Source: an uncultured Fibrobacter sp.
GTDB taxonomy: Bacteria > Fibrobacterota > Fibrobacteria > Fibrobacterales > Fibrobacteraceae
Direction: 5' to 3'
Assembly: GCA_900313675.1 (NCBI GenBank)
Contig: OMSO01000004.1
Location: forward strand, 1 to 64,000
DNA length: 64,000 nt
This document shows, piece after piece, positions 13,224 to 23,393 of the stretch. Under the pieces are notes generated by a model. It made no database searches and was not told the DNA's origin. It worked only from the letters and a program-made list of their open reading frames with translations. Numbering within the stretch: position 1 is the stretch's first letter; every line of letters begins with the position of its first letter. The position numbers and the translations under genes were made by a program.

Positions 13224-13288
13224 GTCACATTTTCAGAACGTAAGCCGCGTTATTCTAACCTGGAATAATGCCAACAGATGCCCAGGTT

Positions 13289-15940
13289 TCAATTTTTTGC
13301 GGATTCGACAATCTGTTTCTTCTTGAGCCAAGAACCGCACAGGTACATCGTAAAGATGATGCTTGTGACAAGGAACATGGCGATGCTAATGCAGGCCAGG
13401 TCGCCGATGCCCTTGAGGCCGCGGTGAGTCGTGAACAGGAACCCGACAAAGCCCGCGATGGTGGTGGTGGAACTTGCCATCACGTTGCGGCCGGTGGTGT
13501 CCATCAGCTGGCGGAGCGTCAGGTCCTTGTCGCCTATCCATGAGGTAATCATGTGGATAGTGGCGTCGATGCCGATACCGAGTGACATTGGGATTACAAT
13601 CACGTTGTAGATGCTGATCTTGCCGAATTCAAACATGTCGGTGAGGAACCCGAGAAGCCCGAGGGTGAGGAGTGTTCCCATGCCAAAGGAAATGCAGCCT
13701 GCCAAGAAGAGTTTCGGCTTGCGGAAAGAAATGACCAGCGTGCCGAAAATCACGAGGATGATGACCAGCGCAAGCCTGAAGCTATCCTTCTTCACGGAGT
13801 CAATCACATCAGAGAGAATGAACTGCGAAGAGAAGGTGCGCAGGTCTTCGCCGTCAAAGTTCCAATGGCCGTAGCGTTCCTGGAACCGGTGCAGGGCGTG
13901 GGCATCCCAGCTGGGGAAATCTCCGTAGATGAAACCGATTTTTCCATAGCTGCCGTCTTTTTCGCGAAGCAGGTCAAGAGTCCAGCTCGGGACATCTTCG
14001 GCGGTAAAGGTTTTCTCTACAGAGGATAGCTTGCGCAGGTTCGCAATATTCACGGAATCTTCGCCCTCGGCACGATCAAACACGCGGGCCTCTACAAGGT
14101 CGCGGATTTCTTCGATGATTTCGAGGCGGGCTTCCTGGGAATCTTTTGGCGGAACGAAACTCTTGAGGGTGAGGAAACTTCCGAGGGTTGAATCGTGTTC
14201 CACGTGCAGGCGCACCATCAGCGTGTCATAAAGTTTGTCGAGCTGTTCGGGCTTGCTTCCCATCACGGCGGCCGGTGTCGACGTTACCGCCTTACCTGTA
14301 GCACGCGTCACCTTCGTAGAAATCTTGTTCTTCGAGGCCGATACGTTCGTCGAGACGCGACGCAGGTTACGGAGGTTGTGTTCGAAGTCCACATCCTGTG
14401 CAAACCAAATGGAAACTGCACCGAGCGCAAAGCTCGCAAAGGCCGCATACTTGAAGAACTTGAGGATTTTCGCCTCGTCCCAGGACTTGGGCAACAGGGA
14501 ATTTTCCGGAGCCTTCGGAATTCCGCCCATGCACTTGATAAAGACGGGGAGCACAAGCACAGAGGTAAGCATGCTGAAGAATACGCCTACGGAGGCCACC
14601 ACGCCGAACTCATAGAACCCACGGAAGTGCGCAGCGAGAAGAGTCAAGAAAGCAGCAATCGTCGTGAAGCTTGCGAGCAAGAAGGGCTTGAGCATTTTCC
14701 TCTGGGCATGTTCCAGCACTTCTTCAAGGGTGGCGTATTTGTGCAAAAGTTTCTGCGAAGTGCCCAAAATGTGAATCGAGTAGTCGATGCCGATGCCCAG
14801 AATGATGGAGGCGACAAACACCGTGAACGGATTCAGCTTTCCGTAGAAGAGGGCAGTAAACGCAAGCGTCGGGAGGCAGGCGTACAGCACCGAAGCAGTC
14901 ACCAGAATCGGGCCCTTCACGCTCCTGAAGAAGAAAATCGTGAGGAAGATGATGAGCACGAGGCTGATGGCGAAGGAGAAGACAGAATCGTTGGCCACTT
15001 CGTCCACTTCCTTGAGGCCCTCGTAGGTGCCTTCCACCGTAAAGCGTGTGGGAACGGGATAGGTCTTGCTGCTGAAATAGGCCAGCAGGGAATCGGTACG
15101 GGCCAAGATGTGGGTCACGAATTCATAGTCAGTAGAAGGCTTGATGAGCTTCGCGTTCACCACGCCGTTGTAAAGAATCTTTCCGGTGCTGTCGGGGCGG
15201 GGGGAACCGATGAGGCGGTTCTTAAGTTCTGTGGGAATGGTGGATTTCGGATTCCATTCTTCCTCTTCGTTTGCGGCTTTTGCTATATCGACGGAATCGG
15301 CCTTGTCTTTTTTGAAGAATGCGTCAAAGGCGCTCACCGCCTCGTCGGGGAGGCCTAGTTCCTGCGGCAGGTTTTCGTCGATCCAGACTCGTTCTTTTTT
15401 CGCGGGCTCGGCTGTTGTCGCACTATCGGTCCCTGAATTTGTCGAAGGGTCGCCCAGCAAATCCACTACCAGCGGGCCGTTCTTGCGACCAATTTCAAGC
15501 TGCAACTCTTCCAGGTTGTCGCGGATGTGTTCCAGGTGCTTTATGGGCAGGTAGAGGAGAGCGTTATCCTTGAAAAACTGGTTGTCGTTATCTACCTGGG
15601 TAGAAACGAAATCGCCTTCCCAATTCTTGTGGATGTAATCGGCGATGGAATCCTGCAGGGCCACCACCAGGTTCACGTCTTCGCTTTGGATGGCAATCAT
15701 GAACTTGTCGGTAGAGCCAAAACGCTGGTAAGATTCCTCAAGCGCCTTTACGCTGGGGGTTCCCTCGGGCAGCAAGTGGGAAAGGTCGGCATCTAGCTTG
15801 AGTCCCGGCTTGAATAAAATGGGAATCGCAAAAAGTAGCGCCAAAATCAGGTAAAAGGCGAGGGCCTTGTACTGGTGCTTGCAAATCAGGGGGATGTACC
15901 AGTTGGAAAATCTTTCGGGAAGTGTTTTTTTGTTAGCCAT
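13289..15940 (-). CDS. RND/MMPL-family exporter, module 1 (left)
   Basis: An 883-residue inner-membrane transporter with two RND/MMPL membrane domains, each following a large periplasmic loop. It has a signal-anchor helix near residue 25, then DADLSHLLPEGTPSVKALEESYQRFGSTD in loop 1. Membrane domain 1 contains GIGIDYSIHILGT and domain 2 GIGIDATIHMITSW, which are the paired helix-4 motifs. I chose the ATG at 15940 (MANKKTLPERF); the longer frame to 16009 runs through a hairpin. It is the distal gene of the left module behind a sulfatase-fold gene, and a close paralogue of the exporter at 20115-22703. The C-terminal 250 residues are almost identical. The cargo is unknown; lipids or lipid-linked products are typical for MMPL proteins. 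Confidence 0.88.
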   Translation of the reverse strand: MANKKTLPERFSNWYIPLICKHQYKALAFYLILALLFAIPILFKPGLKLDADLSHLLPEGTPSVKALEESYQRFGSTDKFMIAIQSEDVNLVVALQDSIADYIHKNWEGDFVSTQVDNDNQFFKDNALLYLPIKHLEHIRDNLEELQLEIGRKNGPLVVDLLGDPSTNSGTDSATTAEPAKKERVWIDENLPQELGLPDEAVSAFDAFFKKDKADSVDIAKAANEEEEWNPKSTIPTELKNRLIGSPRPDSTGKILYNGVVNAKLIKPSTDYEFVTHILARTDSLLAYFSSKTYPVPTRFTVEGTYEGLKEVDEVANDSVFSFAISLVLIIFLTIFFFRSVKGPILVTASVLYACLPTLAFTALFYGKLNPFTVFVASIILGIGIDYSIHILGTSQKLLHKYATLEEVLEHAQRKMLKPFLLASFTTIAAFLTLLAAHFRGFYEFGVVASVGVFFSMLTSVLVLPVFIKCMGGIPKAPENSLLPKSWDEAKILKFFKYAAFASFALGAVSIWFAQDVDFEHNLRNLRRVSTNVSASKNKISTKVTRATGKAVTSTPAAVMGSKPEQLDKLYDTLMVRLHVEHDSTLGSFLTLKSFVPPKDSQEARLEIIEEIRDLVEARVFDRAEGEDSVNIANLRKLSSVEKTFTAEDVPSWTLDLLREKDGSYGKIGFIYGDFPSWDAHALHRFQERYGHWNFDGEDLRTFSSQFILSDVIDSVKKDSFRLALVIILVIFGTLVISFRKPKLFLAGCISFGMGTLLTLGLLGFLTDMFEFGKISIYNVIVIPMSLGIGIDATIHMITSWIGDKDLTLRQLMDTTGRNVMASSTTTIAGFVGFLFTTHRGLKGIGDLACISIAMFLVTSIIFTMYLCGSWLKKKQIVESAKN

Positions 15941-15962
15941 AGGGAGCAATATAATAAAAAGG

Positions 15963-15986
15963 GTCGCATACGGCACGGTATGCGAC
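15963..15986 (-). terminator. hairpin/attenuator between sulfatase-fold gene and RND gene of module 1
   Basis: A 9-bp perfect stem (GTCGCATAC / GTATGCGAC) with a 6-nt loop is followed in the minus direction by CCCTTTTTATTATATT, and 22 nt past the stem lies the RND start codon. It may attenuate read-through. The right-hand module has no equivalent, as its spacer is only 17 nt. Confidence 0.6.
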
Positions 15987-16033
15987 TCAAGTTGTTGATA
16001 TTCGGTCAATTACGACTGATAGAGGGATAAGCC

Positions 16034-18001
16034 TTACGGCATCATGATGTCGTTGCGGAGCACGGAACGCACGGCTCTGGCGGCCCCAACAGCCTTCTTT
16101 TTCCAGGCAAGGTCGCTTGCATCCGTCGTGAGCGCGTACGGGGATTCGCCACCGGGGGCGGCGCGGTACACATCCTCGTTTTCGAGGCCCCCTGCAAGCA
16201 CATGGTCGTGGAACCCTAGGTAGTAGGCGTTTTGCGAGAAGAATACCGATGGCTGTTCTGCAGGGCGCTCCTGAGCAAGCAAGTCATAACCCCAGAAATG
16301 GTTCGGTTCGCGGACCTGAGCCAAGTCAAAAATCGTGGGCCCTAAATCCAGTTGCGAGGCCACATCTTCGCGAATGGTAAGCCCATTAAAGAGAGCTGTG
16401 TCAGCCGAGAAAATCCCGATAAAGATTTGCGAAGCCGAAAGACCAAGCGGTTGCGGAACCAGATAATCTACGGAATCTACTGGAGTGTCGTGGTCGCCTA
16501 AAATAATAATTACCGTATTTTTGAAATCGGGGCGTGTGGAGAGTGCTTCGAAGAATCGCCCGAGTTGCTGGTCGGTATAGCGGATGGCGTTCCGGTAACG
16601 TACCATGGCGTCTTCGGGTTTTTCGGCATAAGTATCGGGGTAGCCGTAGAACGGAATATGCGAAGAAATGGTGTTGAACGAAAGTTCCCAAGAACTGTCC
16701 GCAGGCATTTTGTTGAGCAAATCAATGGCGAGATCCACTCCCAGGCTGTCTGCAGAACCTTCGATTTTTTCTTCGCCAATCAGGTGCCAATCCTTGCCGA
16801 AAAATTTTTCAATGAAGGGGAGGGTATGGTCAAAAATTGGGTTAGAAACGGTCGCATAGGTGCGGTGATAATTTGTTAAAAATTCAGGCCAGCCCTTGAA
16901 CTTGTTTGCCGCATAGAAACTGGGTACGTCGCGGTTGGGGTGAGAGGGGAACCCCATGTAGGTGGCCATGGTGCCGCGCACGGTGGGGTAGCCGCCGCTA
17001 AAAGCGTTCTTGAACCAGAGGGCTCCACCCAGCGCATTGCCGGCGGAATCCTTGGCGTAATAGCCGCCATTTGCCAGTTTCCAGATATTCGGTGCCACTG
17101 CCGTATCGCCGTCGAGCATCTTGTTGAAGATGCGGCCCTTGAACGATTCGCCCATGATGAACACGATGTTGTACGGCTTTTTCGCCTTGTATTCATGAGT
17201 CGGCGCACTGCGGTACATCGGAAGTTCCAGAGCATCGCTGCGACCTACCGCAAAATCTTTTGGCAGGAACGAATCTAAATCGCCGACAAGTTCCTCGGTA
17301 ATCTTCGCGTTGTCGTGAATAAACTCAAAAGTTTCGACAGCGGCAATGTGCAGGATGGGCGCCGTAAGTGTATGCTTGCCCAGTGTAAAGCGCATGTCAA
17401 CCTTCGTGTGGGTCACGGGGATTTCAATCCAGCCGCGAGTGCCCGTAAGGAACAGCACGAGCGGCGTTAGCGATAGAGCCATGCCGATGGCGAACATCGC
17501 GACAGGCGTTTTTTGGGAGGCAGGCTTCCAGCCGCCTTCACTGTTGGTGAGCACGAGCGAACGGCGCTGTTTACGGAGCCTGAGCGAGTATGCGATTACA
17601 TAAGCGATTGCCCCCGCAAAGCAAAGCACAACCATCGAAACCCACAGCACCGTCCCGAGCATGTCGCCACCCAGTGTAGAAACCGTAGTGGCGTCGGTGA
17701 TGTTTGAAATGTGAAAATACGTGCGCAAAAACGAATAAGAAAGGCGCTGGTGCGAAAAACGAAAAACATCGTAGTCTGCAATCGCAATAAAGAAATAGAG
17801 CGCGTAAAAGACGGCTAGCCCGCGGGGAGAGCGCGCGAATCCGAATAGGCCCGCCATGGCAAGCACTGCGCCGAATGCCATAAAAATCTGCCAGAGGGTC
17901 TTGCCTTCGAACATCTCGGCCATCGAGAGCCCCAGCGGGTCGGGCAGGCTGTAGAAAAACACCAGCAAGACGCTCTGCACCACAAGGGCAATGAGTGCCA
18001 T
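16034..18001 (-). CDS. sulfatase-fold LTA synthase-like transferase, module 1 (start-less / OFF orientation)
   Basis: An alkaline-phosphatase-superfamily membrane enzyme. About five N-terminal helices precede a periplasmic catalytic domain starting at KKPYNIVFIMGESFKGR; the Ser in GES is the likely nucleophile. LGDHDTP is a later metal-site motif. LTA synthase and phosphoethanolamine transferase relatives move phospho-groups onto lipids or glycans. The first ATG (18001) is inside the first helix and lacks a ribosome binding site. The same frame stays open to 18115 and encodes NKRSLKHILLARSF, matching the N-terminus of the right-hand paralogue (MISHKNKRSIK). It contains no ATG, GTG or TTG. The gene therefore appears to have been separated from its start codon by inversion of 18082-18142. 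In the other orientation it would encode 686 residues. Confidence 0.85.
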   Translation of the reverse strand: MALIALVVQSVLLVFFYSLPDPLGLSMAEMFEGKTLWQIFMAFGAVLAMAGLFGFARSPRGLAVFYALYFFIAIADYDVFRFSHQRLSYSFLRTYFHISNITDATTVSTLGGDMLGTVLWVSMVVLCFAGAIAYVIAYSLRLRKQRRSLVLTNSEGGWKPASQKTPVAMFAIGMALSLTPLVLFLTGTRGWIEIPVTHTKVDMRFTLGKHTLTAPILHIAAVETFEFIHDNAKITEELVGDLDSFLPKDFAVGRSDALELPMYRSAPTHEYKAKKPYNIVFIMGESFKGRIFNKMLDGDTAVAPNIWKLANGGYYAKDSAGNALGGALWFKNAFSGGYPTVRGTMATYMGFPSHPNRDVPSFYAANKFKGWPEFLTNYHRTYATVSNPIFDHTLPFIEKFFGKDWHLIGEEKIEGSADSLGVDLAIDLLNKMPADSSWELSFNTISSHIPFYGYPDTYAEKPEDAMVRYRNAIRYTDQQLGRFFEALSTRPDFKNTVIIILGDHDTPVDSVDYLVPQPLGLSASQIFIGIFSADTALFNGLTIREDVASQLDLGPTIFDLAQVREPNHFWGYDLLAQERPAEQPSVFFSQNAYYLGFHDHVLAGGLENEDVYRAAPGGESPYALTTDASDLAWKKKAVGAARAVRSVLRNDIMMP

Positions 18002-18067
18002 TGTAAGGAAGGGATTCTTGAGGGCAGAAAACCCACAAAAAGATCTTGCAAGCAGGATGTGCTTTAA

Positions 18068-18081
18068 CGACCGTTTGTTTT
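18068..18081. repeat. left inverted repeat of putative invertible switch
   Basis: CGACCGTTTGTTTT is the exact reverse complement of 18143-18156. It lies inside the coding frame of the left sulfatase-fold gene, over its NKRS codons. It includes AAACGGTCGT on the minus strand, which resembles, from memory, the ARACGTWCGT motif of Bacteroides Mpi invertible promoters (one mismatch). Confidence 0.85.
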
Positions 18082-18142
18082 CCGCATAGGCATTTTGCTT
18101 TAAAGAATTAAATTGCTATATTTTTCAATATGATTTCTCACA
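18082..18142. other. putative 61-bp invertible segment carrying promoter and start codon
   Basis: It is bounded by a perfect 14-bp inverted repeat and lies between two divergent paralogous operons. On the plus strand it contains TATATTTT and then ATG ATT TCT CAC A, the first codons of the right-hand gene. Reversing it on paper places the same ATG in frame with the left-hand gene, giving MISHKNKRSLKH, and leaves the right-hand gene without a start. The reading-frame phase at both repeats is identical, as such a switch needs. Confidence 0.75.
18117..18124 (+). promoter_or_regulatory. promoter-like TATATTTT inside the invertible segment
   Basis: TATATTTT lies 5 nt before the ATG at 18130, with TTGCTT 16 nt upstream of it. 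There is no Shine-Dalgarno sequence, so a leaderless or very short-leader transcript is expected. It points toward the right-hand module in this orientation. Confidence 0.45.
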
Positions 18143-20097
18143 AAAACAAACGGTCGATTAAATTCCGCACACATTTGTTTTGGTTTGTCATTGCTTTGAT
18201 GTTAATTGCAGGTAGATTTTTACTGCTTTGTTCTCTCTATATGCTGCCAACTCCGACAGGTCAATCTCTTGTGCCTGATTGGAATAGGTTCATTTGGCAT
18301 ACACTCTATGCAGAATCGGGTTTTTGCATGGCCCTAGCCTTTTTCTTTTTTACCTTTACGCTATGGGTTCCTCAAAAAAAATTAAGGTGGATAAAGATTA
18401 TTTCTGTTGCTTGCGCATCGCTGTATCTTTTTTTGAGCGGTGTTGATGACGAGTTGCAAAGATGGATGAGTCAAAAACTTTCACTTTCTTTTATTAAAAC
18501 ATACACATTTGCTTTCACTGATGGCGGCCTTGTCGGTAAAATTGCCTTAGGTGGACTTGGCCACTTTCTTCTCACCCTTGGAATTGTCGTTTCTACAATA
18601 ACACTCATTTCTTTCTTTTTATATAAAGTAGATTTATCGCAAATTAGACATAGGCCTATTCAAAAAAACACATGGATGTCTCTAGGATTCATTTTTGTTT
18701 TGGCTGTCCTTGGTTGTACATCCCACCTTTGGTATCACTACTCTCCTCGTCGATGGGATCGTATTCGCCCTGTCGTTTATTCCCTTGTAAGCGATTTATT
18801 TGAGTCGGTCGATTTAAAGGAAAAACCAAAGGATTTTCAGGAAGGCGTTGCCATCTTGGGAGGTGACCCCGATAAAGACTATCCCTTTTGGCACGAAAAA
18901 AAAGACGAACAAAAGTCTTTAGACTTATTCAAGCAAAAGCCCTTAAGCGATAAACCCAACATAATCTTGTTCACCATCGAAAGCCTAAGGGGATGGACTA
19001 GTGACATGCGGGTGGAAAGCAATTGCAAACGTTTCCCAAACTTATGCAGATTGTCCCAAAAGAGCTTGTATTTTCCGAATACTTATAGCATAGGAAATCC
19101 GTCTGTGGAGGGACTTTTAGGCATAATGACGGGTGTCATGAGTTTGCCATCCAATACCCTTTTAAGAGATTTTCCAAATACCAGATTAAAATCCTTTTCT
19201 GAAATACTTTCTGAGGCTGGGTATTATACGGAGGTTCTATTGGGTGCGGACCCACGTTTTGACAATGAAGAACCTTGGTATAGAAAGTGGTTCGATTATT
19301 ACGAATTCGACCCGAAAAATGCCGACGACGTTTCTTCCGCATTGAGATTTGTGGAAAGGTATCGTCAGCGCCCCAAAGACAGGCCCGCATTCTTCCATTG
19401 GATGAGTTTAAGCATGCACACTCCCTACATTTTGCCAAGCAAGATGGGAGAAACGCCAAAAGATCCTGGACAAGCCTATCTCAGAGCCACAGCCTATATG
19501 GATAGCGCCCTCGGAATAATTCTGGATTCTTTAGAAAATGAAGTCCTTTCACAGAAGACTCTGCTCATTTTAACCGGAGACCATTCCTCGCCCAACGGTA
19601 AACAGCAACAGGATGCTGCCCGCATAGGCCTTGGAAGCGAAGGTTATTCGTGGATTAGCCTTATGTTTTGCGGACCTGGAATCATTCCCAGGATTGATTC
19701 TAGAATTGTTTCACAGCAAAATATTGCACCAAGCATATTGGGATATCTTGGCTTAGATGTGTCGAACCATTTTATGGGAATCAATCTCTTTGCAGGTAGT
19801 CTAGATTCAATAGAATTGCCTCAAATTTATTCCTTCAAATATGGTAGTATGGCCATGCGAAAAGATTCTTTGGCGTATTACATACACCCTGTAAATGGAA
19901 CGGAGCCTGCAATTGTCCAAAAGATACTTTTATCTCCTACTTGGAACACCGATGATCCTTCGGAAGGTTTTACAACGGGAGAGATTGTCGAAACGCCTAT
20001 TGAAAAGCGAAAAGAAATCGCAAGAAAAATGAGAGCGGCAGCCAATGCTTGGAATTATATTGTTTACAGCAATAGAATTATGCCGCCAGAAAAATAA
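18130..20097 (+). CDS. sulfatase-fold LTA synthase-like transferase, module 2 (ON orientation)
   Basis: A 655-residue membrane enzyme of the alkaline phosphatase superfamily. N-terminal helices run to about residue 210. A periplasmic catalytic domain follows, with KPNIILFTIESLRGWTSD (Ser after the conserved Glu is the likely nucleophile), SLSMHTPYILPSK, and LILTGDHSSPNGKQ for metal binding. It resembles the left-hand paralogue in architecture and N-terminal residues, but the rest of the protein is strongly diverged. Base composition is AT-rich (22 G+C of 60 at 18361-18420, against 38 of 60 at 16981-17040 in the left copy), suggesting transfer. It is followed after 17 nt by its RND exporter. 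The start codon and first five residues come from the putative invertible segment. Confidence 0.88.
   Translation: MISHKNKRSIKFRTHLFWFVIALMLIAGRFLLLCSLYMLPTPTGQSLVPDWNRFIWHTLYAESGFCMALAFFFFTFTLWVPQKKLRWIKIISVACASLYLFLSGVDDELQRWMSQKLSLSFIKTYTFAFTDGGLVGKIALGGLGHFLLTLGIVVSTITLISFFLYKVDLSQIRHRPIQKNTWMSLGFIFVLAVLGCTSHLWYHYSPRRWDRIRPVVYSLVSDLFESVDLKEKPKDFQEGVAILGGDPDKDYPFWHEKKDEQKSLDLFKQKPLSDKPNIILFTIESLRGWTSDMRVESNCKRFPNLCRLSQKSLYFPNTYSIGNPSVEGLLGIMTGVMSLPSNTLLRDFPNTRLKSFSEILSEAGYYTEVLLGADPRFDNEEPWYRKWFDYYEFDPKNADDVSSALRFVERYRQRPKDRPAFFHWMSLSMHTPYILPSKMGETPKDPGQAYLRATAYMDSALGIILDSLENEVLSQKTLLILTGDHSSPNGKQQQDAARIGLGSEGYSWISLMFCGPGIIPRIDSRIVSQQNIAPSILGYLGLDVSNHFMGINLFAGSLDSIELPQIYSFKYGSMAMRKDSLAYYIHPVNGTEPAIVQKILLSPTWNTDDPSEGFTTGEIVETPIEKRKEIARKMRAAANAWNYIVYSNRIMPPEK
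18143..18156. repeat. right inverted repeat of putative invertible switch
   Basis: AAAACAAACGGTCG, the exact reverse complement of 18068-18081. It covers residues 5-9 (K-N-K-R-S) of the right-hand gene. Confidence 0.85.
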
Positions 20098-20114
20098 TCT
20101 TTGGAGAACAGAAT

Positions 20115-22703
20115 ATGATAGAACATTTTTCTAAATGGTACATATCCTTAATTTGCAGCCACCAGTACAAGGCCCTGGCTTTTTACCTGCTTTTAGCTGT
20201 GCTCTTTGCGGTTCTTATTCTCTTTAAACCTGGTCTCAAGCTGGACGCCGATCTTTCGCATTTGTTGCCCGAAGGCACGCCCAGCGTGAAGGCCCTTGAG
20301 GAATCTTACCAACGTTTCGGTTCAACAGACCAATTCATGATCGCTATTCAAAGCGATGATGTTTATCTAGTTGCGGCCTTGCAGGATTCAATTCGTGAAT
20401 ACATTCACAAAAATTGGCAGGGAGATTTTGTTTCAACCCAAATTGACAATGAAAACCAGTTCTTCAAGGACAATGCTCTACTTTACTTGCCTGTTAAGCA
20501 CCTAGAAAACATCCGCGACAATTTGGAAGATCTTCAACTTGAAATTGGCCGCAAGAACGGCCCGTTCGTGGTTGACTTGCTGGGATTTGCCGATTCGTCT
20601 GCCACGGATTCCGCTGGTGAGTCGTCTGCTCCTGCGAAAAAAGAACGTGTGTGGTTTGACGCAAATATACCGCAAGATCTCGGACTCCCCGACGAAGCGG
20701 CTGGAGCATTCGATTCATTCTTTAAAGGTAAAGGCGAAAACGTTTCGATTGATGGCGAGGAATGGCACAAAAAGAAACCCGTCCCTGTTGCCCTGAGAAA
20801 CCGTTTTATCGGGTGTCCACCTCCCGATAGCACCGGAAAAATTCTATTCAACGGAGTGGTAAATGCGAAACTGATCAAACCTTCTACCGATTACGAATTC
20901 GTAACCCATATTCTTGCGCGCACGGATTCCCTACTCGATTATTTTAGGGCAAAAACTTATCCCGTACCGACCCGCTTTTCTGTCGAAGGAACGTACGAAG
21001 GCCTCAAGGAAGTGGACGAAGTGGCAAATGACTCCATCTTCTCGTTCGCCATCAGCCTAGTGCTGATTATCTTCCTTACTATCTTCTTCTTCCGAAGCGT
21101 GAAGGGTCCAGTTTTGGTGACCGCATCGGTACTTTACGCATGCCTCCCGACCCTTGCGTTTACGGCCCTGTTCTACGGAAAGCTGAACCCGTTCACGGTG
21201 TTCGTGGCCTCCATTATTCTGGGTATTGGTATCGACTATTCCATCCACATCTTAGGCACTTCCCAAAAGTTGATGCACAAGTATGCAACACTAGAAGAAG
21301 TCTTAGAAGCGGCACAGCGCAAGATGCTCAAGCCCTTCATTCTCGCAAGTTTCACGACGATTGCCGCATTCCTTACCTTGCTGGCGGCGCACTTTCGCGG
21401 CTTTTACGAATTCGGCGTGGTCGCTTCCATGGGCGTGTTGTTCAGTATGCTCACCTCGGTGCTGTTCTTACCGGTACTCGTGAAGTGCATGGGCGGTATC
21501 CCGAAGGCTCCGGACAAGTCCCTGTTGCCCAAGTCCTGGGACGAGGCGAAAATTTTGCGTTTCTTCAAGTATCTTGCCCTAGCAGGCTTTGTTCTCGGTG
21601 CTGTATCTATTTGGTTTGCACAGGATGTAGACTTTGAACACAACCTGCGTAACCTGCGCCGAGTTTCTACAGAAAAAACACAAGCAAAGAAGGGTATTCG
21701 CACGGGTGTTACAAGAATCAACAACAGGTCTTCATCTACTCCTGCCGCTGTTATGGGAAGCAAAGCGGAGCAGCTGGATCTCCTTTATGACACCTTGATG
21801 GTGCGCCTCCATGTGGATCACGATACAACTTTACGCAGTTTCCTCACATTAAAGACTTTCGTTCCGCCTAAGGATTCTCAAGAAAAGCGTCTTGAAGTCA
21901 TCGAGGAAATTCGTGAACTTGCCGAGGCCCGCGTGTTCGATCGTGCGGTCGGTGATGATTCTGCGAACATAGCAACTCTACGCAAACTTGCTAATGTCGA
22001 ATCAACCTTTACTGCCGAAGACATCCCCGATTGGGCGTTGGACCTGCTTCGTGAAAAAGACGGCAGCTATGGCAAAATCGGCTTCATCTACGGAGACTTC
22101 CCCAGCTGGGATGCCCATGCACTGCACCGATTCCAGGAACGCTATGGACACTGGAACTTTGACGGCGAAGACCTGCGAACCTTCTCCTCGCAATTTATCC
22201 TTTCTGACGTGATCGATTCCGTAAAGAAGGATAGCTTCAGGCTCGCCCTCGTAATCATCCTCGTGATTTTCGGTACGCTGGTAATCTCTTTCCGCAAGCC
22301 GAAACTCTTCTTGGCTGGCTGTATTTCCTTCGGCATGGGAACGCTACTCACTCTCGGGCTTCTCGGATTTTTGACCGACATGTTCGAGTTTGGGAAAATT
22401 AGCATCTACAACGTGATTGTGATTCCCATGGCCCTCGGTATCGGTATTGACGCCACCATCCACATGATTACCTCATGGATAGGCGACAAGGACCTGACGC
22501 TCCGTCAGCTGATGGACACCACCGGTCGCAACGTGATGGCAAGTTCTACCACGACGATTGCGGGCTTTGTAGGTTTCCTGTTCACCACCCACCGTGGCCT
22601 CAAGGGCATCGGCGACCTGGCCTGCATTAGCATCGCCATGTTCTTGATTACAAGCATCATCTTTACGATGTACCTGTGTGGTTCTTGGCTGAAAAAGAAG
22701 TAA
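20115..22703 (+). CDS. RND/MMPL-family exporter, module 2 (right)
   Basis: An 862-residue paralogue of the exporter at 13289-15940, with the same two RND/MMPL membrane domains and the motifs GIGIDYSIHILGT and GIGIDATIHMITSW. TTGGAGAACAGAAT precedes the ATG. It differs from copy 1 mainly in two linkers, a Ser/Ala-rich one near residues 155-225 and the segment after NLRNLRRVST. The last 250 residues are almost the same protein. Base composition changes along the gene: 25 G+C of 60 at 20341-20400, 34 of 60 at 22501-22560. This fits conversion or recombination between the copies. It forms an operon with the sulfatase-fold gene upstream, whose product or substrate it probably moves. Confidence 0.9.
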   Translation: MIEHFSKWYISLICSHQYKALAFYLLLAVLFAVLILFKPGLKLDADLSHLLPEGTPSVKALEESYQRFGSTDQFMIAIQSDDVYLVAALQDSIREYIHKNWQGDFVSTQIDNENQFFKDNALLYLPVKHLENIRDNLEDLQLEIGRKNGPFVVDLLGFADSSATDSAGESSAPAKKERVWFDANIPQDLGLPDEAAGAFDSFFKGKGENVSIDGEEWHKKKPVPVALRNRFIGCPPPDSTGKILFNGVVNAKLIKPSTDYEFVTHILARTDSLLDYFRAKTYPVPTRFSVEGTYEGLKEVDEVANDSIFSFAISLVLIIFLTIFFFRSVKGPVLVTASVLYACLPTLAFTALFYGKLNPFTVFVASIILGIGIDYSIHILGTSQKLMHKYATLEEVLEAAQRKMLKPFILASFTTIAAFLTLLAAHFRGFYEFGVVASMGVLFSMLTSVLFLPVLVKCMGGIPKAPDKSLLPKSWDEAKILRFFKYLALAGFVLGAVSIWFAQDVDFEHNLRNLRRVSTEKTQAKKGIRTGVTRINNRSSSTPAAVMGSKAEQLDLLYDTLMVRLHVDHDTTLRSFLTLKTFVPPKDSQEKRLEVIEEIRELAEARVFDRAVGDDSANIATLRKLANVESTFTAEDIPDWALDLLREKDGSYGKIGFIYGDFPSWDAHALHRFQERYGHWNFDGEDLRTFSSQFILSDVIDSVKKDSFRLALVIILVIFGTLVISFRKPKLFLAGCISFGMGTLLTLGLLGFLTDMFEFGKISIYNVIVIPMALGIGIDATIHMITSWIGDKDLTLRQLMDTTGRNVMASSTTTIAGFVGFLFTTHRGLKGIGDLACISIAMFLITSIIFTMYLCGSWLKKK

Positions 22704-22781
22704 TTCGATACACATTCTTATTTTCTTGTTCGTTTTTTCAAACGGCGTTATTTTGTTATATGTATTTTTTAGAAGTAAATT

Positions 22782-23393
22782 ATGGTTTTTGGATACATTC
22801 GTGTAAGCAGTGATAAACAAACTACAGAAAATCAGAAGTTTGAAATATCTCGATATTGCGAGAAAAATGGTGTCAAAATTGACAAATGGGTTGAAGAAAA
22901 AAATAGCGGCGCCTTAAATTATAGCAAAAGGAAGCTTGGAAAATTACTTAAAAATATTAAGCGGAATGACACTATTATATGTAGCGAAATATCTCGCTTA
23001 GGCCGTAATCTGTTTATGATTATGGAAATATTAAACATTTGCATGAATAAGGGATGTCAAGTATGGACAATCAAGGACAATTACAGATTAGGCGATGATA
23101 TTCAGAGCAAAATCCTAGCCTTTGCTTTTGGCATTTCGGCAGAAATAGAGCGGAATCTAATCAGTCAAAGGACTAGAGAAGCTTTAGCTCGAAAGAAAGC
23201 CGAAGGTATTTCACTAGGACGGCCAAAAGGGAAAAAAACTGCGCCCTGTAAACATAAACTTTATGGGAAAGAAAACGAAATCTTCAAATTGCTAAACAAG
23301 GGATGTTCCAAAAAGAAGATTGCTAAAAAATGTGGTGTTGATAGAAACACTATGGCAAAATTTATTGCAACAACGAAGCTGAACCCAAAATAA
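22782..23393 (+). CDS. Mpi-type serine recombinase (DNA invertase)
   Basis: A 203-residue small serine recombinase. The catalytic Ser sits in GYIRVSSDKQ (S9). The active-site arginine region ISRLGRN is present. The long helix with AEIERNLISQRTREALARKKAEGISLGRPKG precedes a C-terminal helix-turn-helix (KKKIAKKCGVDRNTMAKF). Size and sequence style match Bacteroides Mpi invertases, which flip promoters between inverted repeats. The gene is strongly AT-rich (19 G+C of 60 at 22981-23040), implying transfer. It follows the right-hand module by 78 bp and overlaps the 3' end of the convergent glycosyltransferase gene by 32 bp. It is the obvious candidate to act on the repeats at 18068/18143. Confidence 0.93.
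   Translation: MVFGYIRVSSDKQTTENQKFEISRYCEKNGVKIDKWVEEKNSGALNYSKRKLGKLLKNIKRNDTIICSEISRLGRNLFMIMEILNICMNKGCQVWTIKDNYRLGDDIQSKILAFAFGISAEIERNLISQRTREALARKKAEGISLGRPKGKKTAPCKHKLYGKENEIFKLLNKGCSKKKIAKKCGVDRNTMAKFIATTKLNPK

Follow-up and report, generated by a model that had tools for sequence, protein, structure and literature searches.

Two divergent operons and their relatives

The window, meaning the whole stretch of 64,000 nucleotides analysed here, is contig C41 of a Fibrobacter MAG (2.4 Mb, 78 contigs, 81% complete), and the genome data used throughout are likewise from MAGs. Two divergent operons lie at the locus, separated by a gap of 128 bp. The minus strand carries sulA (16034..18001), encoding a sulfatase-fold membrane enzyme, and rndA (13289..16009), encoding the resident exporter, which matches the Pfam MMPL model and has a reading frame that opens at 16009 with its first ATG at 15940. 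The plus strand carries sulB (18130..20097), also for a sulfatase-fold membrane enzyme, and rndB (20115..22703), a Pfam MMPL exporter that appears from block trees and silent identity to be a mosaic copy, followed by a small serine recombinase gene. The RndA and RndB proteins are 86% identical (78% at the DNA level), and the SulA and SulB proteins share only 22% identity.

Most Fibrobacter genomes have one exporter of the rndA/rndB family, often adjoining the same glycosyltransferase gene, and the single-exporter genomes carry either an A type with sulA or a B type accompanied by an oppositely directed sulB. The B-type-only loci L033, L048, and L053 have no recombinase gene at the exporter site. 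The A and B modules were found together in the window, in L034 (UBA4223), L056 (UBA4375), and L054 (a distant horse-faeces MAG), and in the fragment L059, which contains sulA, sulB, and part of rndB. In L039, a close relative of the A-only type, sulA-rndA is 92% identical to the window and the B module (18023..23386) is missing; homology between the two ends at 18022 and picks up again at 23387, and the B module is therefore an insertion relative to this relative. A plasmid collection searched with rndB DNA gave no matches.

Some further features of the locus were observed. L041, L043, L046, L055, L058, and L044, without a second exporter, contain one or two sulB-like genes that have diverged (49-67%) and that face sulA and rndA or sit between them, and for this reason the sulA/sulB/rndA site is regarded as a rearrangement hot spot. 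The L059 contig was binned as Treponema sp. UBA4326 and carries the Fibrobacter switch at 95-100% protein identity; it is probably mis-binned. Synteny with sister MAGs is lost at the 3' end of rndA (window 13272-13317). Left of rndA, other contigs of the genomes G061 and G062 align collinearly with the window (TrkH, SBF, and GLUG genes), and L034, L041, L044, and L046 have a different gene downstream of rndA, common to all four. The break represents either a rearrangement in the window genome or a contig misjoin.

The 61-nt segment and its predicted invertase

A 61-nt segment (18082..18142) lies between a left inverted repeat, TTTAACGACCGTTTGTTTT (18063..18081, plus strand, 19 nt), and a right inverted repeat, AAAACAAACGGTCGATTAA (18143..18161, minus strand, 19 nt), the latter within the sulB reading frame. 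The two arms are 89% complementary over 19 nt. The segment faces sulB in the window, and its interior is reversed in L034, L056, and L059 with the flanks collinear; between the window and L034 the reverse-complement match is exact at 89/89 nt. The strain comparison thus shows the 61-nt segment in both orientations across near-identical strains. This site-specific inversion had not been noticed in the initial annotation, which was made from the sequence alone.

The segment contains a -10-like TATATT (18117-18122), followed after 7 nt by an ATG (18130). In the window orientation this ATG is the start of sulB (MISHKNKRSIKF), and in the L034 orientation the same ATG is an in-frame start for sulA (MISHKNKRSLKH...LKNPFLTMALI). 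Each orientation, then, supplies one of the two genes, and no more than one, with an in-frame ATG; the other gene, which faces away, keeps an open frame through its arm that contains no ATG. In the window the sulA reading frame runs on upstream, through the left repeat, and a start codon is gained there only with the flipped segment; a weak internal sulA start, at the ATG at 18001, is possible. The in-frame arms of both sulA and sulB encode N-K-R-S.

A scan for E. coli-type promoters found none in the segment. Of 257 regions upstream of genes in the window and in related loci, about 40 contain TAT..T at 6-7 nt before the ATG (18 and 22 cases, vs about 2-3 at most other distances), and this enrichment suggests that leaderless transcripts could be common in Fibrobacter. 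The spacing between TATATT and ATG in the segment fits the enriched distance.

The small recombinase gene (22782..23393, plus strand) encodes a Pfam Resolvase protein that matches the NCBIfam Mpi-family equivalog model NF009949 over residues 1-200 with 321.9 bits (cut-off 272). Three of the 80 Fibrobacter genomes searched contain the 100% identical invertase, and these are the same three that have the repeat pair with the matching interior. The genus-wide pattern search for the repeats, with gaps of 55-85 allowed (the window's own site has a gap of 71 in that pattern), gave two more matches, both with unrelated interiors. No inverted match was found among the other divergent sulB/sulA gaps (L041, L043, L046, L055, and L058), where the sole find was a 16-nt self-palindrome in L058. 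Single arms were also detected in 50 viral contigs, one arm each, and were taken as chance matches. The distant species represented by L054 has the same layout, with a conserved repeat core, a -10/ATG cassette, and an invertase. Its arms have 3 mismatches in 17, and its spacer, longer than that of the window, contains one -10/ATG; sulA is the gene in frame with this start, and the sulB arm is immediately preceded by a stop.

The Mpi-family enzyme is likely, on the strength of its family assignment and its distribution, to be the one that acts on the 61-nt segment. Alternatively, the B module could have arrived on a mobile element whose resolvase or transposase is this recombinase, with another enzyme flipping the segment. 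The B module is indeed an insertion relative to L039, weaker matches of the protein include an IS607 transposase and Tn3-type resolvases, and the homologues in most other Fibrobacter genomes (57-68%) have no repeat like the window's nearby, with two or three weak candidates among them. However, the Mpi-family score is well over its cut-off and far over that for IS607 (322 vs 43 bits), an invertase (67% identity) and the repeat core occur together at the same place in L054, and the B-only genomes that lack the invertase have a fixed start. A separate flipping enzyme is accordingly considered improbable.

Mosaic structure of rndB

It had been proposed initially that G+C rises along rndB and that an AT-rich incoming copy was overwritten from its 3' end by the resident one. 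The counts behind this proposal, 25/60 at 20341-20400 and 34/60 at 22501-22560, were reproduced exactly, but no gradient emerged. By hydropathy analysis, two large loops separate the helices, which fall within residues 16-45, 302-505, and 705-859. The third-position G+C (GC3) of rndB follows these blocks as a sawtooth, with loop 1 at 0.47, membrane block 1 at 0.68, loop 2 at 0.43, and the C-terminal block at 0.69. The GC3 range was 0.47-0.63 in B-only genomes and 0.64-0.76 in the window's A copy.

The close C-terminal match to rndA that had been described was confirmed, with 96-100% protein and 82-94% DNA identity from 22077 onward, and identity along the pair is far from uniform, falling to about 50-70% at the DNA level at ~20520-20790 and 21630-21720. 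Synonymous-codon identity between rndB and its own rndA is 0.48, 0.53, 0.53, and 0.68 in the four blocks in order, and the value for the C-terminal block (22030..22703) differs from those for the loops (0.48 and 0.53) with a Fisher p of 4.9e-5. Five control comparisons of an A copy with a B-only copy gave a weak effect at most (p 0.014 to 0.72). The exporter pair of L054 displays no C-terminal homogenisation, and silent identity there is 0.28.

Trees built for each block placed the loops and the membrane blocks differently. In the loop trees, the rndB copies of the window and of L034 cluster with the B-only copies (SH-aLRT 99.8 and 97.6), and a grouping of the window's copy with A copies was rejected by the AU test (p 0.001 and 1e-5). 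In the trees for membrane block 1 (20934..21540) and the C-terminal block, both leave the B-only clade and are placed among the A copies, although a B clade was not rejected by the AU test for either block (p 0.10 and p 0.27, respectively). Both membrane blocks are thus A-like and both periplasmic loops B-type, a pattern that contradicts an exchange progressing from the 3' end.

Strains with chimeric exporters, which had been predicted, are present, namely L034, L056, and L059. The rndB of L034 is identical to that of the window from 21531 to the gene end and differs from it at ~20390-20510 and 21377-21482, where most of its bases are A-type. It is 95-99% like the rndA of the same locus around the second of these tracts, with a longest silent run there that gave a permutation p of 0.002. 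In L056 an A-like tract begins at 21179 and is accompanied by a different A-like C terminus, and in L059 rndB is A-like from about 21044 on. The best match of the L056 tract is not that locus's own A copy, and donors may therefore be other strains. The sharp breakpoints that had been anticipated were thus found in the relatives; in the window's own pair, however, no run was significant (longest silent run p = 0.46), which implies that exchange there would be old or repeatedly overwritten.

Because the sister MAGs have short A-like tracts at different places in their B exporters, recombination from A-type exporters into an AT-rich rndB is supported, although the idea that it advanced from the 3' end has been abandoned. 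As judged from the tracts, the exchange appears old and soft in the window rndB and sharp in the relatives. For L034 the donor was likely the A copy within the same genome; for the window, either the adjacent copy or the A allele of a different strain may have served. A large inversion through the exporter arms, also raised previously, was not seen in the two-module loci, 5/5 of which share one orientation.

The same pattern might arise from constraint alone, with conserved membrane helices simply using G+C-richer codons. In A copies too GC3 is higher in the membrane blocks (mean 0.67-0.68 vs 0.61-0.62), protein conservation of these blocks is high in all exporter copies, and part of the conservation in the membrane helices is indeed ordinary constraint. 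What exceeds it is synonymous-codon identity, and this excess is specific to the comparison of the window rndB with A copies from the species complex to which it belongs; when either window copy was compared with B-only copies there was little or none. In addition, sister strains that are otherwise identical differ in short A-like tracts. Constraint without conversion is thus an unlikely explanation. Assembly artefacts, with A and B reads joined by short-read assemblers in near-identical stretches, are another conceivable source of the chimeric tracts: every genome is a MAG, the L056 exporter copies are interrupted by a scaffold gap and contig ends, and L059 likewise ends within the exporter. 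However, L034 is free of gaps over 20 kb, and the tract at 21377-21482 is common to the L034 and L056 B exporters, including a base T absent from the A copies compared. The phylogenetic discordance of the window rndB is independent of the chimeric tracts, and the DNA inverted at the switch is unique, with flanks that are collinear. Artefact is on balance very unlikely.

A predicted either/or switch and its known counterparts

The interpretation favoured here, which is held to be quite probable, is an either/or switch between two sulfatase-fold/MMPL operons combined with gene conversion of the exporter from A into B. The B module would be an AT-rich block that brought its own Mpi-type invertase, and the predicted role of this enzyme is to flip the 61-nt segment between its inverted repeats. 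Since the segment carries both the promoter-like element and the start codon, one operon has both and the other neither; transcription would follow the orientation of the segment, presumably producing leaderless transcripts, and the cell would probably make just one of two surface-modifying machines at a time. Homologous recombination, in the form of gene conversion with a putative donor within the same genome, would have given the membrane blocks of rndB their A-type sequence. Its periplasmic loops would be kept B-type by selection, presumably as a match to the partner enzyme or product. A fuller version of this proposal has about an even chance of being correct. It holds that the locus is a self-contained exclusive switch module, made up of an invertase, a promoter-plus-start-codon cassette in frame with the gene of the resident enzyme, and an alternative enzyme with an exporter whose membrane halves were then homogenised to the resident type with the loops left specific, and that cells alternate between two envelope chemistries.

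The neighbouring genes encode glycosyltransferases, a nucleotidyltransferase, an aminotransferase, and a relative of LicD-like cholinephosphotransferases, all scoring under curated cut-offs, and these gene types make a surface glycan or lipid with a phospho head group a plausible product. The sulfatase-fold enzymes match LtaS, phosphoglycerol transferase, and YejM models weakly. Each is predicted to transfer a head group, and the exporter, with loops matched to the product, to move that product or its lipid carrier. The hopanoid exporter HpnN was considered as an identity for the exporter and rejected (165.9 bits vs a curated cut-off of 751.85). Titles and abstracts of the literature on aminoethylphosphonate in Fibrobacter yielded nothing useful.

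In the Hin flagellar switch of Salmonella, a serine invertase selects between two alternative surface components, and a choice of this kind is predicted here. Unlike in Hin, the Fibrobacter invertase gene lies outside the 61-nt segment, and the second operon would not require a repressor. Short tracts are copied between paralogues when duplicated genes on one chromosome undergo gene conversion, as would be the case here with copies in inverted orientation. In contrast to usual conversion between paralogues, the exchange appears to follow domain borders, with membrane blocks exchanged and periplasmic loops distinct.

Mpi itself is the master invertase of the Bacteroides fragilis capsule promoters (PMC4747536). 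Those capsule loci (PMC4747536; PMC5903667) have in common with the Fibrobacter locus an Mpi-family serine invertase, short inverted repeats, a promoter-containing segment (promoter-like in the present case), and surface-related genes. B. fragilis has 13 scattered sites, whereas the Fibrobacter locus has one local site, where the segment lies between two divergent operons, carries a start codon and first codons, and would feed one operon or the other. If promoter and start codon flip as one, the choice between the operons would be strict, and the N-K-R-S-encoding arms fit such a design. Fibrobacteres is absent from the phyla for which a survey of 209 datasets lists inversions, though the phylum may not have been sampled (PMC5903667), and in the literature searched no report was found that links Fibrobacter with Mpi/invertible promoters or with invertons. 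If correct, the proposal would describe a phase-variation mechanism for the cell envelope in fibre-degrading gut bacteria, and the exporter mosaic would serve as a natural experiment that tells which parts of the exporter have to match the partner enzyme.

Elsewhere, L087 (8969-9117) and L093 (8934-9016) each combine an imperfect repeat and a -10/ATG cassette, ~0.4 kb or less from the Mpi homologue, and these are perhaps further switches.
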